NCBI GenBank assembly: GCA_014730235.1 | Contig: WJIO01000145.1 | Span: 1 to 15,620, forward strand | Direction of reading: 5' to 3' | DNA: 15,620 nt | Source of the DNA: Candidatus Poribacteria bacterium | Lineage (GTDB): Bacteria > Poribacteria > DTPJ01 > WJIO01 | Shown: one piece after another, positions 6,945 through 13,811 of the stretch | How the letters are laid out: each line of letters opens with the position of its first letter | Numbering within the stretch: position 1 is the stretch's first letter | Notes under the pieces: model-generated | The model's database searches: none | Seen by the model: only the letters and a program-made list of their open reading frames with translations | What the model was told of the DNA's origin: nothing | Translations under genes and position numbers: made by a program

Positions 6945-6985
6945 AATTGTAAAAGATAGAAAATAAATATGAATATAAAATATCT

Positions 6986-7094
6986 GGCTCTTTCGGGTTC
7001 AGTGTGGTAAAGATAAGAAACTTCTGTATGCTGTTATTCCTGCTTTCGCAGGAATGACAAGCTGAGGGATAACCACACCGAACCCGGAAGAGCC
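6986..7094. mobile_element. MITE copy 1 (ISL3-like ends, perfect 8-bp target duplication)
   Basis: The element is bounded by GGCTCTTTCGGGTTCAGTGT on the left and a near-perfect inverted copy ending GAACCCGGAAGAGCC on the right. It is flanked by AAATATCT at 6978-6985 and again at 7095-7102, an exact 8-bp target-site duplication. At 109 bp it has no coding capacity. The core ATTCCTGC-TTTC-GCAGGAAT (7036-7055) is a hairpin. ISL3-family insertion sequences have GGC-starting ends and 8-bp duplications, so mobilisation by an ISL3-type transposase elsewhere is inferred. It lies between the deacetylase and the kinase genes, both on the minus strand. Confidence 0.85.
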
Positions 7095-7158
7095 AAATAT
7101 CTCATATATGCACTCTTCAAAACATTATATTACCGCGAAGAATCAACCGCTTATCTAT

Positions 7159-8220
7159 TTAAAAGTCTACAGCTTCTTTTATATCTTCCCAGCCAATAAG
7201 TTTAATTTCCAGTTCATCAATCAACACCTGCGTTTCCAGGTCGGTAAAGACCATATAATCAATATAGCGGGCCATATAATTTCTGTCTATATCTTTAACT
7301 TCATCATCATCAATACCCAGGTGGACGATAAGCTGATTTACCCCGGGTTTTAAATCTCTTAATCTAGCATAATATGCGGCTTTTTTTTCTTCATAGGTGT
7401 TTCCAGCAACCCCTAGAATAAGATTATCCAGGAGAGGGTATCGAGCTTTCTGAACTATCTTATAAAACAGCTCTATTTCTCTCTCAGTAACATGTTCTAT
7501 ATACCTGTTGACAATTTCAGGTGTAAATTTAACCAGCAAAGGTGGAATATCATATTCCTTTGCCAACCGGGCATAGATCAGAAAAATGTCTTTCCTGACA
7601 AGAATTGCACCCATATGTGTATCCAGATGAGTGGGTTTTATACCGTTTTCCAGTGCCTTTTCGATTTGTGCCCGAAGTTCAATTTCGACCTCTTCACTTT
7701 CCGCATTATTTTTTATATCCCATAAATTCCCCCACATGTATCCCTCTTCATCGACAAGACTGGGAACTTTATCTACAGGGGCTACAGGTCCCCATCGGTG
7801 ATTTTCTAATTCACTGGTAAGGGTAAAATGCACGCCCATATCAACCTGTGGATGTTCCCGACAATATTCGGCAACTTCGGGGAAATCAGGGCATGGAACC
7901 ATCACACTGCCGCATGTAACTATATTAAATTCAAAGGCATTAAACGCGCCTGCATTTGCCGCGCTGGTCAAACCTATATCATCAGCATGTATTATTAACA
8001 GTTTTTCATGATTAGCATAACCAAGCTTTTCCGATAACGTAAGGACATCATCAGAAGAATCCAGATGACTTTCCAGAAAATCTTTTATTAAAGAACCACC
8101 GGTTCTATTTTTATGACCAGCTTTCCATATATCGGCTTGTTTTTTACCTGATCTTTTAAGAATTTTAGCAATAAAATAGTCTTTGAATTTATTTTTAAAA
8201 TAATTCTCTTCAATATTCAA
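7159..8220 (-). CDS. ChbG/YdjC-family carbohydrate deacetylase with N-terminal extension
   Basis: YdjC/ChbG-family metal-dependent deacetylases remove acetyl groups from oligosaccharides such as chitobiose. The metal site can be read directly: LLIIHADDIGLTSAANAG (His79, Asp81 and Asp82 counted from TTG 8223), GVHFTLT (His132) and PTHLDTHMG (His199, Asp201, His203). About 65 basic residues precede the LSEKLGYANHEKLLIIHADD segment, a longer N-terminus than in enterobacterial ChbG. There is no signal peptide. The start is a TTG: TTGTTG occurs at 8223 and 8220, and GGG at 8228-8230 gives 4- or 7-nt spacing, so I chose 8220. It begins 14 nt after the stop of the secreted lectin-like gene, so the two form an operon. 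This pairing suggests glycan capture and deacetylation; the substrate is unknown. Confidence 0.85.
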   Translation of the reverse strand: MNIEENYFKNKFKDYFIAKILKRSGKKQADIWKAGHKNRTGGSLIKDFLESHLDSSDDVLTLSEKLGYANHEKLLIIHADDIGLTSAANAGAFNAFEFNIVTCGSVMVPCPDFPEVAEYCREHPQVDMGVHFTLTSELENHRWGPVAPVDKVPSLVDEEGYMWGNLWDIKNNAESEEVEIELRAQIEKALENGIKPTHLDTHMGAILVRKDIFLIYARLAKEYDIPPLLVKFTPEIVNRYIEHVTEREIELFYKIVQKARYPLLDNLILGVAGNTYEEKKAAYYARLRDLKPGVNQLIVHLGIDDDEVKDIDRNYMARYIDYMVFTDLETQVLIDELEIKLIGWEDIKEAVDF

Positions 8221-8234
8221 CAAACTACCCTTTC

Positions 8235-8969
8235 TTACTTTTTAATCTCACCCCAGGTTTTGGCCAGGCTAGATTCGGGTTCTACAGACATAGGTCTTTT
8301 GTCACCTTCATCACCTTCATAAAGGACAATATCGTCGAAATATGTTTCAAACGTTGTTCCACCGTTGCCAACATTGGCCGCATTAAACTTATCAACACCC
8401 TGGTTACCGCCGTAATTTCTAAAAGATGCCCCTGCCACCATCTCTTCATCGTCATAATAAAAATCATATTTATTATTGTCCAGATGCATTACCAGCTTAA
8501 AATTATGCCATACTCCTGAAACAATTTGACCGCAGTGAATCCATGCCCCGTCATGATATTCCAGGGTAGGATTTTTCCCCGGAAGCATGGCAACACAAAC
8601 GCCTGACCAATCATCCGGAGCCTGTTGATTCATTATGTAAAAAATCTCCACATCGCTTCCGGCACTTTCCTGAACAAGCCACATAAACTCCAGGGATACA
8701 ACACCTTCTTCTATCATGGGATCCAATATTAAAGTCATCCCGCCGCCGCTTCCGTTATCCGTAACCCTGACGCTTTTATTACTGGCATCAGGAAAATCCT
8801 CCACAACAATTTCCCCTGCCCCTGTAGGCTTCCATGGCTCTGACGGGGGGTCACCTATGGTTTCGTCGTTAAAATCGTAGTAGAATATGAATTCTTCCTC
8901 CAGTTGAGCAATGCATAAAAGGGGAAACAAAAGAACCAAAAAATAAACACAAAATAAATATTTTATCAA
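8235..8969 (-). CDS. Secreted concanavalin A-like lectin/glucanase-domain protein
   Basis: TTG at 8969 lies 6 nt from a consensus GGAGG (8976-8980) with no nearby ATG, so a TTG start is well supported. The first 21 residues (YLFCVYFLVLLFPLLCIAQ) are a secretion signal, cleaved near CIA|Q or possibly lipidated at the Cys. The mature part reads as a jelly-roll, LamG or DUF1080-like domain: FIFYYDFNDETIGDPP.PW, DASNKSVRVTDN, GVVSLEFMWLV, WHNFKLVMHLDNNKYDFYYDDE and TTFETYFDDIVLYEGD. These are typical of secreted carbohydrate-associated proteins in polysaccharide degraders. No catalytic residues can be assigned, so a binding role is more likely than hydrolysis. It is followed at once by the ChbG-like deacetylase. 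A MITE lies 44 bp upstream of its start. Confidence 0.8.
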   Translation of the reverse strand: MIKYLFCVYFLVLLFPLLCIAQLEEEFIFYYDFNDETIGDPPSEPWKPTGAGEIVVEDFPDASNKSVRVTDNGSGGGMTLILDPMIEEGVVSLEFMWLVQESAGSDVEIFYIMNQQAPDDWSGVCVAMLPGKNPTLEYHDGAWIHCGQIVSGVWHNFKLVMHLDNNKYDFYYDDEEMVAGASFRNYGGNQGVDKFNAANVGNGGTTFETYFDDIVLYEGDEGDKRPMSVEPESSLAKTWGEIKK

Positions 8970-9013
8970 TGTATACCTCCATAATTTAAAAAGTTTGTTA
9001 AATCAAAAGAAAT

Positions 9014-9177
9014 GGTTCTTCCGGCTTTAGTGTGTCTATAATTGAAAATTCTCTCAGCTTGTCATTCCTGCGAAATCAGGAATCCATTCTTTATGCAGAT
9101 CTACCGGATTCCCGCTTTCGCAGGAACGACAGCATAAAGAAGTTTCTTATCTTTACCCCACTGAACCCGGAAGAGCC
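9014..9177. mobile_element. MITE copy 2 (perfect 8-bp target duplication)
   Basis: The left end is a decayed GGTTCTTCCGGCTTTAGTGT; the right end is intact (CCACTGAACCCGGAAGAGCC). AAAGAAAT occurs exactly on both sides (9006-9013 and 9178-9185), an 8-bp target duplication. The interior holds an inverted repeat (9061-9085 with 9106-9130, 22 of 25 matching) starting GTCATTCCTGCG. Its right arm matches the left arm of copy 1 (AAAGATAAGAAACTTCT..ATGCTGT), while its left arm matches copy 3 (TTGAAAATT.TCTCAGCTTG). Any frame here is a shadow; there is no coding function. Confidence 0.85.
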
Positions 9178-9185
9178 AAAGAAAT

Positions 9186-9432
9186 TAACCTTATCATTAT
9201 ATTATCTGCTTTAGCGATCAGATAAAATCATTACAAAATTGCTCATAGATTTTAACAACCTATAATAACTATGTCAATATTTCTTTAACTAATCATAAAA
9301 TTTATGCCTGGTATTTAATAAAAATATGGATAATAATACAAATTTTAGCATAAATTTGTATTATTATCTAGTCTGGAAAATAGGCCATGAAAATGATATA
9401 AAAATGATTATAATTTAATGGAGTTAAATTCT
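9186..9432. other. AT-rich intergenic region
   Basis: Together with copy 2 this fills the gap between the lectin-like gene and the acetyltransferase gene. It contains the near-palindrome CATAAAATTTATG (from 9294) and the perfect hairpin at 9329-9368. I see no gene or RNA gene in it. Confidence 0.5.
9329..9368 (+). repeat. Perfect 17-bp inverted repeat upstream of the acetyltransferase
   Basis: GATAATAATACAAATTT (9329-9345) is repeated exactly in inverted form at 9352-9368 around the 6-nt loop TAGCAT. It ends 64 nt before the acetyltransferase start and has no T-tract. The stem is very AT-rich. It could be an operator or a DNA cruciform; an RNA terminator role is less likely. Confidence 0.6.
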
Positions 9433-9918
9433 ATGGGACAGTTAAAACCAGAAATTAGAAATATGGCACCAGAGGATATAAATAGTATCAGGGAACTTGT
9501 TAAAGATTACCCCCCTCTAACAGCCCACGAAAATTATGTATATCGGATATTGGCTGAATACTTTTCGGAAACATGCTTTGTTGTCGAATTTGAAGGTGAA
9601 TTAGTAGGCTTCGCTTCTGGATTTATAAGCCAAAAAGATCCATCAGTATTTTTTATCTGGCAGGTTTGCATTGACGACAGTCATCGTAAAAAGCTAATCA
9701 TGAGACTTATAAGAGAGCATATAAAAAAAGTAGCAAAGACTATGGGATGCAAAAAAATGCAGTTCACCGCAATGGTTGGTACAGATATAGGCAGTTCCAT
9801 GAGTAAACTGGCAAAGCTGCCATTAACACCAGTTTCCGGCCCAAAGGAATTTTTAAGATCGGTTAATGAAAAGACAGGTAAAGAAGAGATAGAACTTTTG
9901 TATGAAGTTAAGATATAG
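9433..9918 (+). CDS. EctA-like GNAT acetyltransferase (orphan)
   Basis: The 161-residue protein aligns by eye with EctA, the L-2,4-diaminobutyrate N-gamma-acetyltransferase of ectoine synthesis. Shared segments are IRNMAPEDINSIRELVKDYPPL, ENYVYRILAEYFSETCFVVE, GELVGFASGFI and PSVFFIWQVCIDDSHR. The usual acetyl-CoA loop R-x-x-G-x-G/A is replaced by HRKKLIMRLI, without glycines, so CoA binding may be altered or lost. No ectB or ectC is nearby, so ectoine synthesis from this locus is unlikely; acetylation of another diamine or amino acid is possible. I chose ATG 9433 because GGAG (9420-9423) sits 9 nt before it; ATG 9418 lacks such a site. A perfect hairpin lies upstream and a ligase relic downstream. 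It is cytosolic. Confidence 0.7.
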   Translation: MGQLKPEIRNMAPEDINSIRELVKDYPPLTAHENYVYRILAEYFSETCFVVEFEGELVGFASGFISQKDPSVFFIWQVCIDDSHRKKLIMRLIREHIKKVAKTMGCKKMQFTAMVGTDIGSSMSKLAKLPLTPVSGPKEFLRSVNEKTGKEEIELLYEVKI

Positions 9919-9950
9919 AATTAAATTGAAAGAAATGTATACATAATTTC

Positions 9951-10073
9951 ATGAATTTACAAACGTTCGAAAAACCCGGAAATGAAGCCGCAATTGGTAT
10001 TAATCGTCCTTTACTTACATATACCCATATTGAGTATTTAGTCAATGCAATTATTAATTCTTATTACTTATAG
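9951..10073 (+). pseudogene. Relic of an AMP-forming acyl-CoA ligase N-terminus
   Basis: This 40-residue frame reads MNLQTFEKPGNEAAIGINRP then LLTYTHIEYLVNAIINSYYL and stop. The pattern 'AIG..RPLLTY..I..LV..I' is the characteristic opening of AMP-binding (acyl-CoA synthetase/ligase) enzymes, normally about 500 aa long. Here it ends at the point where it meets the 3' end of the convergent PilP-like gene, overlapping it by 20 nt. No ribosome binding site is evident. I read it as the surviving 5' end of a ligase gene cut by a rearrangement. Chance similarity of a short ORF is the alternative. Confidence 0.4.
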
Positions 10074-10746
10074 CCCTTTCAACCACCTCTAATTTTTCCA
10101 TTGCTCCTCTGTATTCCTCAGGATTCCTGATACCTTTCATCTGTAAGCCATCAATGTGCTTCTCTATTTCCCGTCTTATATTATGGAGTTCATCCACACT
10201 CATTTTCCTGGCCCACTCGTGCTCTCCTTCGGGCTTTTTCCCTCTGTCCCAACTTTCTTTTTTAACAGAATTTGCAGAACCTTTTTCTTTATTTCCTTTT
10301 TTATAACTATCCTGCCGCTGCATATTTCCGCCGCCCTCTGACCCTTTGTTGTTGCTGGTAAGTTGAGAAGTGGGAAGTTTTATCTCTTTCTCACTGCCTT
10401 CATGAATTATATAAACACTTTCTTTACCTACTTTTATAAGTTTTACGTCATGGGCAAATCTCTGACCCTCTGTAACATAATAACTCTTATCCGAACCCCG
10501 AATCTGTATAAAGGCAGAATTTCCCATAATACCTGTCAGGACAAATTCTACCGTCTTGATTTCATCACCCGAACCTAAAGGCATGAATAGATTATTATTT
10601 ATAATACTACTGTATTTATCAATTTCAGAAACATCTGATTTTTCATGCTTTATATCAGCATCCTGGGCATTTATTCCGTAATTGATAATCAGTATAAGGC
10701 TTGATATTAATATAAATAAAATTTTAAAATTTGTCTTAGGTTTCAT
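10054..10746 (-). CDS. PilP/GspC-like periplasmic protein with charged tail
   Basis: ATG 10746 is chosen because AAGGAG (10754-10759) lies 7 nt upstream; the frame also opens at 10779 without support. MKPKTNFKILFILISSLILI and following NYGINAQ act as a signal peptide or N-terminal anchor. The segment YSSIINNNLFMPLGSG...VEFVLTGIMGNSAFIQIRGSDKSYYVTEGQ...VKLIKVGKESVYIIHEGSEKEI has the order of the PilP/GspC homology domain: a 'NLF' strand, 'L.GI', 'YVTEGQ', and a closing 'V.I...G' strand. These domains link inner- and outer-membrane parts of type IV pilus or type II secretion machines. A long Lys-, Glu- and Gly-rich linker and a helical C-terminus (MSVDELHNIRREIEKHI...) follow, which are not typical. 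No other secretion genes are present, so it is an orphan and its role is uncertain. Confidence 0.65.
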   Translation of the reverse strand: MKPKTNFKILFILISSLILIINYGINAQDADIKHEKSDVSEIDKYSSIINNNLFMPLGSGDEIKTVEFVLTGIMGNSAFIQIRGSDKSYYVTEGQRFAHDVKLIKVGKESVYIIHEGSEKEIKLPTSQLTSNNKGSEGGGNMQRQDSYKKGNKEKGSANSVKKESWDRGKKPEGEHEWARKMSVDELHNIRREIEKHIDGLQMKGIRNPEEYRGAMEKLEVVERAISNKN

Positions 10747-10774
10747 TATCCTGCTCCTTAATTTATTACTCCCA

Positions 10775-10936
10775 AGCATAAAATTTATGAGTATGGTAAT
10801 AATTTGAAAATTTTCTCAGCTTGTCATTCCTGCTTCAAGCTTTTTGAAAAAGCTTGAAGCAGGAATGACAAATGGAGGATGTTTTTTCTTAATTGGACAA
10901 TGTTTTTTATACTTCCACACTCAAACTGGATGAGCC
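10775..10936. mobile_element. MITE copy 3 (decayed left end)
   Basis: The right end reads CACACTCAAACTGGATGAGCC, an inverted form of the family end. The left end is recognisable only from GAGTATGGTAATAATT (cf. TTAGTGTGGTAATAATT in copy 4); its outer part is replaced, so the boundary near 10775 is inferred from spacing to copy 4. The right arm shares GAGGATGTTTTTTC, TTAATTGGACAATG and TTTTTTA with copy 4. The centre is the 51-bp palindrome listed separately. No target duplication can be seen. Confidence 0.7.
10821..10871. repeat. 51-bp perfect palindrome with 1-nt centre
   Basis: Arms 10821-10845 and 10847-10871 are exact inverted copies of 25 bp, beginning TTGTCATTCCTGC and running through TTCAAGCTTTTT, around the single base G10846. 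It forms the core of MITE copy 3. Such a long, nearly spacer-free palindrome is normally unstable in bacterial DNA. Confidence 0.85.
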
Positions 10937-11157
10937 AAAACTTCTGATACAGACTAAAAACTTTATTTATTACTCCGTTCTTCGCAATAACACAGGGATG
11001 TAAAATTTATGCTTGGTTATTACTCAAAAGACTTGATTTTAACATTGATATTCCTGTATAATTCAAAATGAAAAACAATTGATGTAAAATTTTGCCAGAT
11101 CATTTCAAATATGAAGTCAGGTTTACCATATCGGCTTTCCAGAACCGCACTTCGTAA
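10937..11157. other. Intergenic leader before the glycosyltransferase
   Basis: No gene is seen here. It contains TAAAATTTATGCTTGGT (11001-11017), also present in variant form at 9296 and 10779, and the promoter at 11033-11062. A 16-codon frame at 11111-11161 overlaps the glycosyltransferase start but lacks a ribosome binding site. Confidence 0.4.
11033..11062 (+). promoter_or_regulatory. Putative promoter of the glycosyltransferase gene
   Basis: TTGATT (11033-11038) and TATAAT (11057-11062) are separated by 18 nt, about 95 nt upstream of the glycosyltransferase start. The -10 is a perfect sigma-70 match. Confidence 0.4.
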
Positions 11158-11928
11158 ATGATGCATCAAAGAGAGAGAAATATCTTGACATATACAAAGC
11201 TTTCCATAGTAATACCTGTCTATAACGAGATCGAAACCATATACGAAATACTTAGACGAGTAAGTAATGTTGAAGTTGACCTGGAAAAAGAAATTATATT
11301 AGTTGACGATTGCTCTAAAGATGGAACAAGGGAAATATTGCAAAAAATAGCCGATAAAGACCCTGAAACCATGAGCGAAATTAACCCTAAAGAATCCTGC
11401 ACTTTTAAAGTAATTTTACATGAACAAAACGCCGGCAAGGGTGGAGCTTTACGCACCGGATTTAAACATATTACCGGCGAAATAATGCTGATACAGGACG
11501 CTGACCTGGAATATGAACCCGAAGAATACCCTATATTGCTAAAACCTATCCTGGACGGTGAAGCCGACGTTGTTTACGGCTCAAGATTCCTGGGTAAAAA
11601 ACGCCCGGAGGGAATCCTTTTCAGTAGTTTTGTCGCTAATAAAGTTTTAACATGGTTGTCCAATTTGCTTTCAGGCATAAAAGTGACAGATATGGAAACC
11701 TGCTATAAAGTAATAAAAACGCCTATACTAAAAGAAATTGAATTAACATCCGACCGGTTCGGTATTGAACCGGAAATAACAGCCAAATTAGCCAAGAAAA
11801 ATGTCCGCCTTGTGGAAATTCCTATCTCATATCACGGCAGGGATCACGCAACCGGAAAAAAAATAAACTGGAAAGACGGATTTTCAGCCATCTTTCATAT
11901 AATTCGGTTCAACCTGGATAGAGATTGA
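11158..11928 (+). CDS. GT2-family glycosyltransferase (DPM1/dolichyl-phosphate-mannose-synthase-like)
   Basis: The fold is GT-A. It has KLSIVIPVYNE at residues 14-24, IILVDDCSKDGT (nucleotide-binding Asp pair), NAGKGGALRTGF, IQDADLEYEPEEYP (the DAD metal motif, with the usual Y.PEEYP tail) and YGSRFLG. This layout is that of dolichyl/undecaprenyl-phosphate sugar transferases, which load a sugar onto a polyprenyl phosphate at the cytoplasmic face. Length (256 aa) fits the catalytic domain alone, without a C-terminal GtrA or membrane part, so it is likely peripheral. Start: ATG 11158 lacks a good Shine-Dalgarno, whereas TTG 11185 (LTYTKLSIV) has GAGAGAG about 7 nt upstream, so the true start may be 11185. 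The truncated hicB begins 11 nt after its stop, so the two are probably co-transcribed. Confidence 0.9.
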   Translation: MMHQRERNILTYTKLSIVIPVYNEIETIYEILRRVSNVEVDLEKEIILVDDCSKDGTREILQKIADKDPETMSEINPKESCTFKVILHEQNAGKGGALRTGFKHITGEIMLIQDADLEYEPEEYPILLKPILDGEADVVYGSRFLGKKRPEGILFSSFVANKVLTWLSNLLSGIKVTDMETCYKVIKTPILKEIELTSDRFGIEPEITAKLAKKNVRLVEIPISYHGRDHATGKKINWKDGFSAIFHIIRFNLDRD

Positions 11929-11939
11929 GGAAAATTAAA

Positions 11940-12107
11940 ATGAAAATATATGATCTATCCGTCATAATAGAAAAAGACGAAGATGGATATTATGTAGCTA
12001 CTATACCTGCGCTTAAAAGTTGTTACACTCAAGCTAAAACTTTAGAAGAACTTTATCCAAGAATACAGGAAGTTGTAGAGTTGTGTTTACCTCTATCTAT
12101 GAGCTAA
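11940..12107 (+). CDS. HicB-like antitoxin fragment (orphan, C-terminally truncated)
   Basis: ATG 11940 follows GAGG (11927-11930) at 9-nt spacing; an upstream TTG at 11925 only adds MRKIK. The 55 residues read LSVIIEKDEDGYYVATIPAL, KSCYTQAKTLEELYPRIQEV, VELCL, which is the HicB partial RNase H-like fold (DEDGYYVA, P.L..C.TQ..T.EE...I.E). HicB neutralises HicA, an mRNA interferase. Here the reading ends abruptly with PLSMS, encoded antisense to the last codons of the UroD-like gene (15-nt overlap), and the usual tail is missing. No hicA precedes or follows. It is either a short stand-alone HicB-like protein or, more likely, one truncated at a rearrangement breakpoint. It follows the glycosyltransferase gene closely. 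Confidence 0.65.
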   Translation: MKIYDLSVIIEKDEDGYYVATIPALKSCYTQAKTLEELYPRIQEVVELCLPLSMS

Positions 12108-13202
12108 TTCGGCAGAAAAGTCCAGGTATTTCTTTATGCCTTCGGGTGTAACGTTCCAGGGGACATGGTTTCCGATGCACATCATGTATCCTCCGGTCAT
12201 TTTAGCTGTTTCCACCATGCTTTCTACCATTGCCCTTATTTCTTCCGTATTGTTTCGGGTTAATACCCGGTTGTCACCCTCACCAGCGGCAAAGCAGTCT
12301 TTGTGCTTTCTTGCCATGGTTTTGTAATCTGTATATGGTTCGCTGATGATCCCCCTTGCTCCGCAGGCGAAGACATCGTCGGCATAGGCATCAATACAGC
12401 CATCCACCATAAATATTACTTCCTTACCGGCTGATTTTAACATGCCCCAGAATTCTTCATATCGAGGGAATATATACTTGTGCATCCATTTTGGAGAGCA
12501 TACAGGTCCACGTGATGTAACTATGTCGTCATGGCAGATTACAAAATTCACCGGAAGTCTTGCGAAAGTACGGAAAACCCGACGATTGATCTCGGCGAAT
12601 TCGTCCATTATCCTTTCAAAACGCTTATCCAAACATGTCTCCAGAAAGAGATTCCAGCCGAAGGTAAGTAAAGGCCACATAAACATGGTGTTATAAAAAC
12701 CTGTAGAAGCGGTAGAACCTTCAGGGGCTTTATCACCCCATTCAGCGGGATAACCCTTGCGGTACATTTCATAGAGCTTTTCCTCATCCGAGTAATCTCT
12801 GGACTCTACGACAGGTATATGTGTGAAATCTCCCTGTTCCAGGGGAGAAAATGCGAATACATCCTCGGGGGTTTTGAATTTTGCTCCCCAATCCCAATGG
12901 CTTGTAACGCTGTCACCCCATCGCACTCTGAGCCTTCCTTCTTCGTCTTTTGTGGAGCTTTGTCCTTCCAGATCGAGCTTTGGGCGGGGTTTTGGATCAT
13001 CAGTAGCCGGAATCCCAAGGCCCAATTGCGGATATAATTCCCGCAGTTTTAATCTACATTCCCTGGGATGTTCGTAATAGTCAATACCCGTCAGGTATGT
13101 TTCAGCATCAGGACAAGACCAGTGCTCCCAATGAGGTATATTTTTTGGCGCTAAACCCATGTAGGCCATGTACCTGTCACTATATTCGGGTTTTTCTGGC
13201 AT
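12093..13202 (-). CDS. Uroporphyrinogen decarboxylase-fold (URO-D/MtaA-CmuA type) methyltransferase-like protein
   Basis: The 369-residue protein has the URO-D superfamily layout used by haem UroD and by cobalamin-linked methyltransferases such as MtaA and CmuA. Recognisable segments are the N-terminal DRYMAYMGLAPKNIPHWEHW, FMWPLLTFGWNLFLETCLDKR, VICHDDIVTSRGPVCSPKWM, KYIFPRYEEFWGMLKSAGKEVIFMVDG, ARGIISEPYTDY and the C-terminal GGYMMCIGNHVPWNVTPEGIKKYL. His and Cys residues in ICHDD and CIGNH are candidates for metal binding, as in the methyltransferase branch. The haem-enzyme N-terminal Arg signature is absent, so a haem role is unlikely. No corrinoid protein lies next to it. Cytosolic. ATG 13202 has AAAGGAG about 11 nt upstream. 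A MITE lies 38 bp before the start. It converges on the truncated hicB. Confidence 0.8.
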   Translation of the reverse strand: MPEKPEYSDRYMAYMGLAPKNIPHWEHWSCPDAETYLTGIDYYEHPRECRLKLRELYPQLGLGIPATDDPKPRPKLDLEGQSSTKDEEGRLRVRWGDSVTSHWDWGAKFKTPEDVFAFSPLEQGDFTHIPVVESRDYSDEEKLYEMYRKGYPAEWGDKAPEGSTASTGFYNTMFMWPLLTFGWNLFLETCLDKRFERIMDEFAEINRRVFRTFARLPVNFVICHDDIVTSRGPVCSPKWMHKYIFPRYEEFWGMLKSAGKEVIFMVDGCIDAYADDVFACGARGIISEPYTDYKTMARKHKDCFAAGEGDNRVLTRNNTEEIRAMVESMVETAKMTGGYMMCIGNHVPWNVTPEGIKKYLDFSAELAHR

Positions 13203-13240
13203 ATTTATTTAGACTCCTTTTGTATATTTTAAGATTATTT

Positions 13241-13381
13241 GGCTCTTTCGGGTTTAGTGTGGTAATAATTAACAAACTCTCTAAGCCTGTCATTCCTGCA
13301 AATGCAGGAATGACAAACAGAGGATATTTTTTCCTAATTGGACAATATTTTTTACATTTTCACACTCAAGTCGAAAAAGCC
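13241..13381. mobile_element. MITE copy 4 (8-bp target duplication, 7 of 8)
   Basis: Left end GGCTCTTTCGGGTTTAGTGT; right end CACACTCAAGTCGAAAAAGCC. The flanks are GATTATTT (13233-13240) and GATTATTA (13382-13389), a target duplication with one difference. The core TGTCATTCCTGCA-AA-TGCAGGAATGACA (13288-13315) is a perfect 13-bp hairpin. The right arm shares the GAGGATATTTTTTC and TAATTGGACAAT segments with copy 3. It sits upstream of the UroD-like gene. Confidence 0.85.
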
Positions 13382-13410
13382 GATTATTATAAATAATTTG
13401 GTTACATATA

Positions 13411-13593
13411 GTAATCGTTAAAAAATGGATATAATTTAGTTGTCATTCCTGGGAAAGCAGGAATCCAGTCTCCCAATATAGTGTTTTTTCTGGATTCCTG
13501 CTTTCCCAGGAATGACAAATTTTGTAATTTACCATCATTATAAAGGTATTTTCAGGTATTTTCTAAACACATTTTTCATTTTTTAACGATTAC
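13411..13593. mobile_element. Second type of inverted-repeat element with 17-bp perfect ends
   Basis: GTAATCGTTAAAAAATG (13411-13427) recurs as an exact inverted copy at 13577-13593, giving a 183-bp unit. ATATA flanks both sides (13406-13410 and 13594-13598), a possible 5-bp target duplication in AT-rich DNA. The interior contains the 29-bp palindrome at 13440-13518. These ends differ from the ISL3-like family. No coding capacity. Confidence 0.65.
13440..13518. repeat. 29-bp perfect inverted repeat with the GTCATTCCTG core
   Basis: Arms 13440-13468 and 13490-13518 are exact inverted copies of 29 bp, starting TTGTCATTCCTGGGAAAGC, around a 21-nt loop. The core is the same as in the four MITEs but here sits in an unrelated inverted-repeat unit. 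Confidence 0.85.
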
Positions 13594-13811
13594 ATATATT
13601 ATAATACTATACGGAAAAATAATCCATATCTTATCCAAAAACTGCTATTTTTGCAAGATTCATTCATCTTTAGCACAATCCATGCCATACAGCCAATATT
13701 TCACATCTACAGGCGAAATTAACGTCATTTTTATTCTGTTTTTACTTTACGTTATAACCTGTAATATGCTATAATTAGCTATGAAAGCCGGAGTGAAAGG
13801 AGTAGGACGTT
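13594..13811. other. Intergenic region before lpxL-like gene
   Basis: AT-rich, with no gene or RNA gene visible except the promoter at 13746-13775. A 12-codon ATG frame at 13781-13819 overlaps the ribosome binding site but shows no sign of being real. Confidence 0.4.
13746..13775 (+). promoter_or_regulatory. Putative promoter of the lpxL-like gene
   Basis: TTTACG (13746-13751) and a perfect TATAAT (13770-13775) are separated by 18 nt. The predicted start of transcription near 13782 gives a leader of about 30 nt containing the AAAGGAG ribosome binding site. Confidence 0.35.

Follow-up and report, generated by a model that had tools for sequence, protein, structure and literature searches.

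REPs of the CGTC-1 class, which include dRS3 of Neisseria and RPE-6 of Rickettsia, have a CGTC or TGTC tag, an 8-bp stem beginning with AT, a 4-nt loop and a CCA tail, and form head-head dimers (PMC3733652). The 2013 survey that defined the CGTC REPs reported them with no dedicated or associated transposase and mostly apart from other repeats; what moves them was left open, and the possible role of other transposases was raised as a question (PMC3733652). In Halothiobacillus neapolitanus, CGTC-1 dimers lie within 41-bp palindromes, and for these palindromes neither target duplication nor mobility was reported (PMC3733652). One MITE that contains a REP is already known: QMITE2 of Coxiella burnetii, a single family with a GTAG REP and 7-11-bp direct repeats (PMC5896051). 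In the Candidatus Poribacteria genome analysed here the REP is instead of the CGTC type, and it is shared by three repeat families with several hundred copies and cross-family chimeras. As in H. neapolitanus, REP dimers are enclosed by a palindrome, but this palindrome is a MITE, hereafter F1, that duplicates its target.

The window, that is, the whole stretch of 15,620 bp that was analysed, is one complete contig of a MAG (5.53 Mb, 451 contigs). It carries four F1 elements, all on the forward strand and all intergenic between predicted genes. Element 1 (6986..7094, 109 bp) has both terminal inverted repeats intact and a hairpin core at 7032..7059 (+; TGTTATTCCTGC-TTTC-GCAGGAATGACA), and is flanked by the target duplication AAATATCT (6978..6985 on the left, 7095-7102 on the right, 8/8). 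Element 2 (9014..9177, 164 bp) is flanked by AAAGAAAT (9006..9013 and 9178-9185, 8/8), and its core at 9060..9131 (+) is an inverted repeat made of CGTC-1-type REP hairpins in a head-head dimer. Element 4 (13241..13381, 141 bp) has a right arm of type B, a core at 13288..13315 (+) and flanks that agree at 7/8 positions (GATTATTT at 13233..13240, GATTATTA at 13382-13389). An earlier sequence-only reading of the window had proposed these three elements with exactly these boundaries and ends, together with the two perfect duplications and the 7/8 one, and all of this stands.

The same reading had placed the remaining element at about 10775-10936, and here only the right end holds (reverse complement GGCTCATCCAGTTTGAGTGTGG, last base 10936). 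Position 10775 is no terminus, and the stretch 10771-10789 is part of a surrounding repeat, F4, so that element 3 is a remnant at 10790..10936 with its left tip deleted. This was revealed by sister copies of F4 with F1 inside, in the order CCAAGCATAAAATTTATG-TCCGTGAAAACTTT-GGCTCTTCCGGTTTGAGTATGG, relative to which element 3 lacks about 29 bp, left tip included, by a short deletion. The left remnant of F4 lies at 10771..10789 (+; CCCAAGCATAAAATTTATG) and its right side at 10937..11016 (+), starting with AAAACTTC and ending with TAAAATTTATGCTTGG; the right flank AAAACTTC of element 3 is the duplication seen in the sister copies (AAAACTTT/AAAACTTC). The core of element 3 is of an extended form (TGTCATTCCTGC..TTCAAGCTTTTTGAAAAAGCTTGAA..GCAGGAATGACA, 10822..10870, +). 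F4, with CCAAGCATAAAATTTATG ends, was seen in the window at 10771-11016 and at about 9296-9324, and had 54 end-like matches in a 1.36-Mb sample of the genome. Downstream of element 4 lies a copy of F2, a family unrelated to F1 (13411..13593, +; GTAATCGTTAAAAAATG..CATTTTTTAACGATTAC), with the same type of hairpin as a head-head dimer at 13441-13517. The predicted RNA fold of element 1 reached -62.7 kcal/mol (z -11.5) and that of element 4 a z of -7.5; transcribed F1 copies would thus be expected to fold into strong hairpins, with possible effects on adjacent mRNA. Rfam gave no match in the window.

To profile F1 across the genome, the end pattern GGCTCTTYCGGGTTYAGTGTG was searched at ≤3 mismatches in all 5.53 Mb. 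A total of 812 sites were found (400 forward, 412 reverse), compared with none for the reversed pattern used as the control, which is far more than chance would give. The 1.36-Mb sample, mostly regions picked for end sites, was then scanned with an end profile built from 303 ends (GGYTCTTCCGGGTTYAGTGTGGTAAWRATW), which detected 419 ends, against one for the reversed control. These data extrapolate to about 1000 ends and about 400-500 F1 elements in the whole genome, a rough estimate since the sample was selected, and they bear out the heavy amplification that the sequence-only reading had deduced from four copies. Many F4 copies hold F1 at one identical site, so amplification of F4 may supply part of this number. 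Compared with the 711 ERIC copies of Photorhabdus (cited in PMC10969869), the copy number of F1 comes close to the top of what has been reported in bacteria.

A total of 140 paired F1 elements, 62-244 bp in length, were found in the sample. Perfect 8-bp duplications flanked 56 of them (0.5 with shuffled flanks) and 7/8 duplications another 27 (3.7 with shuffled flanks), while exact matches of 9-12 bp were found in 0/140, so the duplication is exactly 8 bp long; further copies with such duplications were what the earlier reading had proposed to look for. The duplicated targets were 90% A+T. F1 has terminal inverted repeats GGYTCTTCCGGGTTYAGTGTGGTAA, with ends of the GGYTCTTCCGGGTTYAGTGTGG type, and no coding capacity; it is thus short, non-coding, bounded by inverted termini, target-duplicating and present in many copies, as MITEs are. 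In the 120-bp class, the mean divergence of the copies from the consensus was 10.6% (range 3-32%), and the family is therefore neither brand new nor ancient. The lengths clustered near 120, 141, 163, 184 and 205 bp, and these steps of about 21-22 bp are at least in part due to hairpin variants. Precise insertion is directly seen at locus L109, where an F1 copy nested in F2 (7231-7351) is flanked by the duplicated target TCATTTTT. When the L109 flanks were joined, they matched more than 10 unfilled F2 copies across the junction at identities from about 90%, several of them at 92-98%, and one of the unfilled matches is in the window itself (13537-13598, 89% identity).

F1 has a modular layout, and nearly every copy carries along, between its two arms, a hairpin of the form TGTCATTCCTGC..GCAGGAATGACA. 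It takes three forms: a 28-bp monomer whose loop is GAAA or TTTC, a head-head dimer, and extended versions with CTTCAAGCTTTTTGAAAAAGCTTGAAG inside; the commonest in this genome is the 28-bp monomer with GTC on either side. The dimer reads TGTC-ATTCCTGC-GAAA-GCAGGAAT-CCA..TGG-ATTCCTGC-TTTC-GCAGGAAT-GACA, that is, a TGTC-tagged unit with an AT-starting 8-bp stem, a 4-nt loop and a CCA tail, plus its inverted partner. Judged from these sequence features, the core hairpin fits the CGTC-1 REP class. It differs from the described members in its context, as those are mostly apart from other repeats, whereas at least 191 of the 203 hairpins in the 1.36-Mb sample touch F1, F2 or F3 and lie inside repeat-family arms. 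Of the remaining 12, the majority appear, by our reading of the sequences, to be hairpins with decayed arms. Within F1 the arms are combined non-randomly (left types A1/C pair with right types A2/B), and the core is oriented about randomly relative to the arms (GAAA 14, TTTC 15). The shared core, the other families that carry it and the position of element 3 inside another repeat are observations beyond the sequence-only reading.

Outside F1, the same hairpin was found in F2 (GTAATCGTTAAAAAATGG..CATTTTTTAACGATTAC) and F3 (CTGAGAATTCTAAAAAATCTCTAAAACC..), both unrelated to F1. Both sides of the hairpin were F1 in 119 of the 203 cases, F2 in 10 and F3 in 6, and about 20 were cross-family chimeras joined at the hairpin (F1-F2 15, F1-F3 3-4, F2-F3 1). 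F2 has terminal repeats GTAATCGTTAAAAAATG, and its left arm had more than 30 matches in 1.36 Mb, some of them hairpin-less. F3, starting with CTGAGAATTCTAAAAAATCTCTAAAACC, was seen at L048, L049, L052, L099, L103 and other loci. At L109, an F2 carries F1 within its right arm, and L089 consists of an F2 left arm, the hairpin, an F1 right arm and then the F2 tail TCATTTTTTAACGATTAC as in L109. By arrangement, L109 resembles the substrate, and L089 the product, of a single hairpin-hairpin deletion. In other chimeras the adjoining sequence is unique DNA, consistent with insertion next to the partner MITE and not within it. An inversion model was considered for the chimera at L126 and rejected as the predicted continuation was not seen; deletion alone is claimed.

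We compared F1 with ISL3 elements, the family to which the sequence-only reading had tentatively assigned its ends. Ends were resolvable in seven of nine reference ISL3 loci from plasmids (those of ISKpn25 and ISEc53 were not resolved), and perfect 8-bp duplications were present in all seven. The tips were mostly of the GGNTC(A/T)TC type (e.g., GGTTCATCCGG, GGTTCTTCGCGG, GGCTCTTCG, GGGTCTTCC): GGTTCATCCGG in the ISL3 element of Pseudodesulfovibrio profundus, GGTTCTTCGCGG/GGTTCATCGCGG in ISAeme19, GGTTCATCGCGG in that of Vibrio diabolicus, GGGTCTTCCC in ISKox3 and ISCfr12, and GGTTCTATA/GGCTCTTCG in IS1476, where TTGTGTTGG follows further inward; the Metabacillus element has a more distant pair, GATTCATCACC/GTCTCTTCACC. 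In the genome itself, the PF01610 (ISL3) profile detected three partial genes, each at a contig end. On contig C342, the remnant terminates with ..ACCGGATGAACC at the stop codon of its transposase gene, reading inward GGTTCATCCGG, and the one on C391 has the end GGATTCATCCGGG, which does not align to F1 without a gap. Over the first 11 bp, F1 is identical to the P. profundus and C342 tips except at position 6 (A/T), and the agreement is weaker with ISKox3, ISAeme19, IS1476 and the Metabacillus element. F1 thus has both an 8-bp target duplication and an ISL3-type terminal sequence, and shares GGNTC(A/T)TC-type tips and perfect 8-bp duplications with ISL3 insertion sequences (P. profundus ISL3, ISAeme19, IS1476, ISKox3, ISCfr12), which agrees with the earlier assignment. 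Unlike them, it is without a transposase, is only 62-244 bp long and has an inner end, GGGTTYAGTGTGGTAA, that was on no autonomous element found. The full-length ISL3 transposase gene with the same ends that the earlier reading had suggested searching for did not turn up, only remnants: no autonomous parent with the 22-bp ends of F1 was found beside the ISL3 fragments, all of which are at contig ends, no long copies (260-6000 bp) lay between F1 ends in 1.36 Mb, about a quarter of the genome, and the ISL3 zinc ribbon (PF14690) had no match in the genome. From the terminal sequences we infer ISL3 as the best candidate family for F1, short of a demonstration because no autonomous element with F1 ends was found.

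Taken jointly, the data are, in our judgement, probably explained by F1 being a high-copy MITE with ISL3-type ends that an ISL3-family DDE transposase mobilised in trans, with a CGTC-1-type REP core that the MITE amplified as its passenger and with arms exchanged between families through nested or adjacent insertion and hairpin-hairpin deletion. The transposase would now be lost or unassembled, and the hairpin would not be self-mobile; a MITE would insert within or next to a second one, and deletional recombination between their hairpins would then leave the arms swapped. A different origin of F1 has to be weighed, as target duplications in the IS6, IS1595, IS256 and IS66 families are likewise 8 bp or 8-9 bp long, IS6 ends begin with GGTTCTG, and the genome has a single IS256-type gene. 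We regard derivation from one of these families as very unlikely: among the families searched, IS1595 and IS6/IS240 transposases were absent from the genome, the IS256-type gene was rejected as the parent as it has no F1-type end nearby, and the ISL3 reference ends fit F1 better over the first 11 bp. The chimeras could in turn be assembly artefacts, as the short-read MAG, in 451 contigs, contains near-identical palindromes of 24-64 bp by the hundred. Usual sequencing reads are longer than these hairpins, however, and one nested insertion point recurs at two separate loci, L089 and L109, which is expected of a real deletion; an artefact seems an unlikely source of the swapped arms.

It is also conceivable, though we lean clearly against it, that the CGTC-type hairpin is itself the mobile unit and was inserted independently into existing MITEs, e.g., at palindromes, by an IS200/IS605-like single-strand enzyme. 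Identical hairpin variants in three unrelated families would fit such insertions, as would the few hairpins without a recognised MITE arm, the presence of one Y1 transposase gene in the genome and the location of the H. neapolitanus dimers, likewise within palindromes (PMC3733652). Free-standing hairpins, however, are almost absent, and the F2 and F3 copies without a hairpin appear to have lost it by deletion, with the hairpin foot TGTCATT retained, and do not resemble clean empty sites. The Y1/RAYT-like gene, with no CATTCC hairpin adjoining it, was rejected as the mover. Hitchhiking of the hairpin inside MITEs is well supported, and how it changes its carrier family is what we infer from the chimeras. 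Whether the passenger model extends to CGTC-type REP hairpins as such, so that they would be multiplied in the cores of DDE-transposase MITEs and move between families through nesting and hairpin recombination, giving interchangeable arms on a common core, is a tentative proposal to which we would give slightly less than an even chance.

In this lineage, the passenger model would offer a concrete answer to the question raised in the 2013 survey (PMC3733652), with CGTC hairpins riding in DDE-type MITEs with readable 8-bp duplications, and would mean that unrelated MITE families can swap halves by way of short hairpins. MITEs themselves are known, and F1 is a new member with ISL3-type ends; likewise, the REP inside a MITE follows the GTAG-type precedent of Coxiella. 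We found no description of several MITE families that share a CGTC-type REP core and form chimeras with one another, in literature of incomplete coverage that gives no proof of novelty, and no papers on ISL3-derived or Poribacteria MITEs by name, in a search that extended to few subscription journals.

To reveal the distribution of F1 within the phylum, we scanned Poribacteria genomes for the 25-bp F1 end and for the short hairpin. The end was found at 738 sites in this genome, whereas three other genomes had only 1 to 7 sites apiece, all with 3 mismatches. The hairpin was detected at about 344 places here (the palindrome counted once per strand) and in 0 of the 83 other Poribacteria genomes. 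A scan of viral contigs for the F1 end pattern gave nothing. Elements with related ends (GGYTCTTCAGRGTTAAGTGTGG, GGCTCATCAGGGTTCAGTGTGG) were seen in three distant Poribacteria, G004, G029 and G057 (loci L138-L148). These were 134, 270, 469 and 561 bp long and non-coding, or cut at contig edges, and no transposase was found between the related ends, some of which were cut off at contig edges. PF01610 had no match in G004 and G029, and the related-end copies of G004 all stop at contig ends. Perfect 8-bp duplications flanked two of the elements (270 and 561 bp), and the 134-bp element of G057 has a different central hairpin. In a contig scan for the related end, matches occurred in Poribacteria records only.
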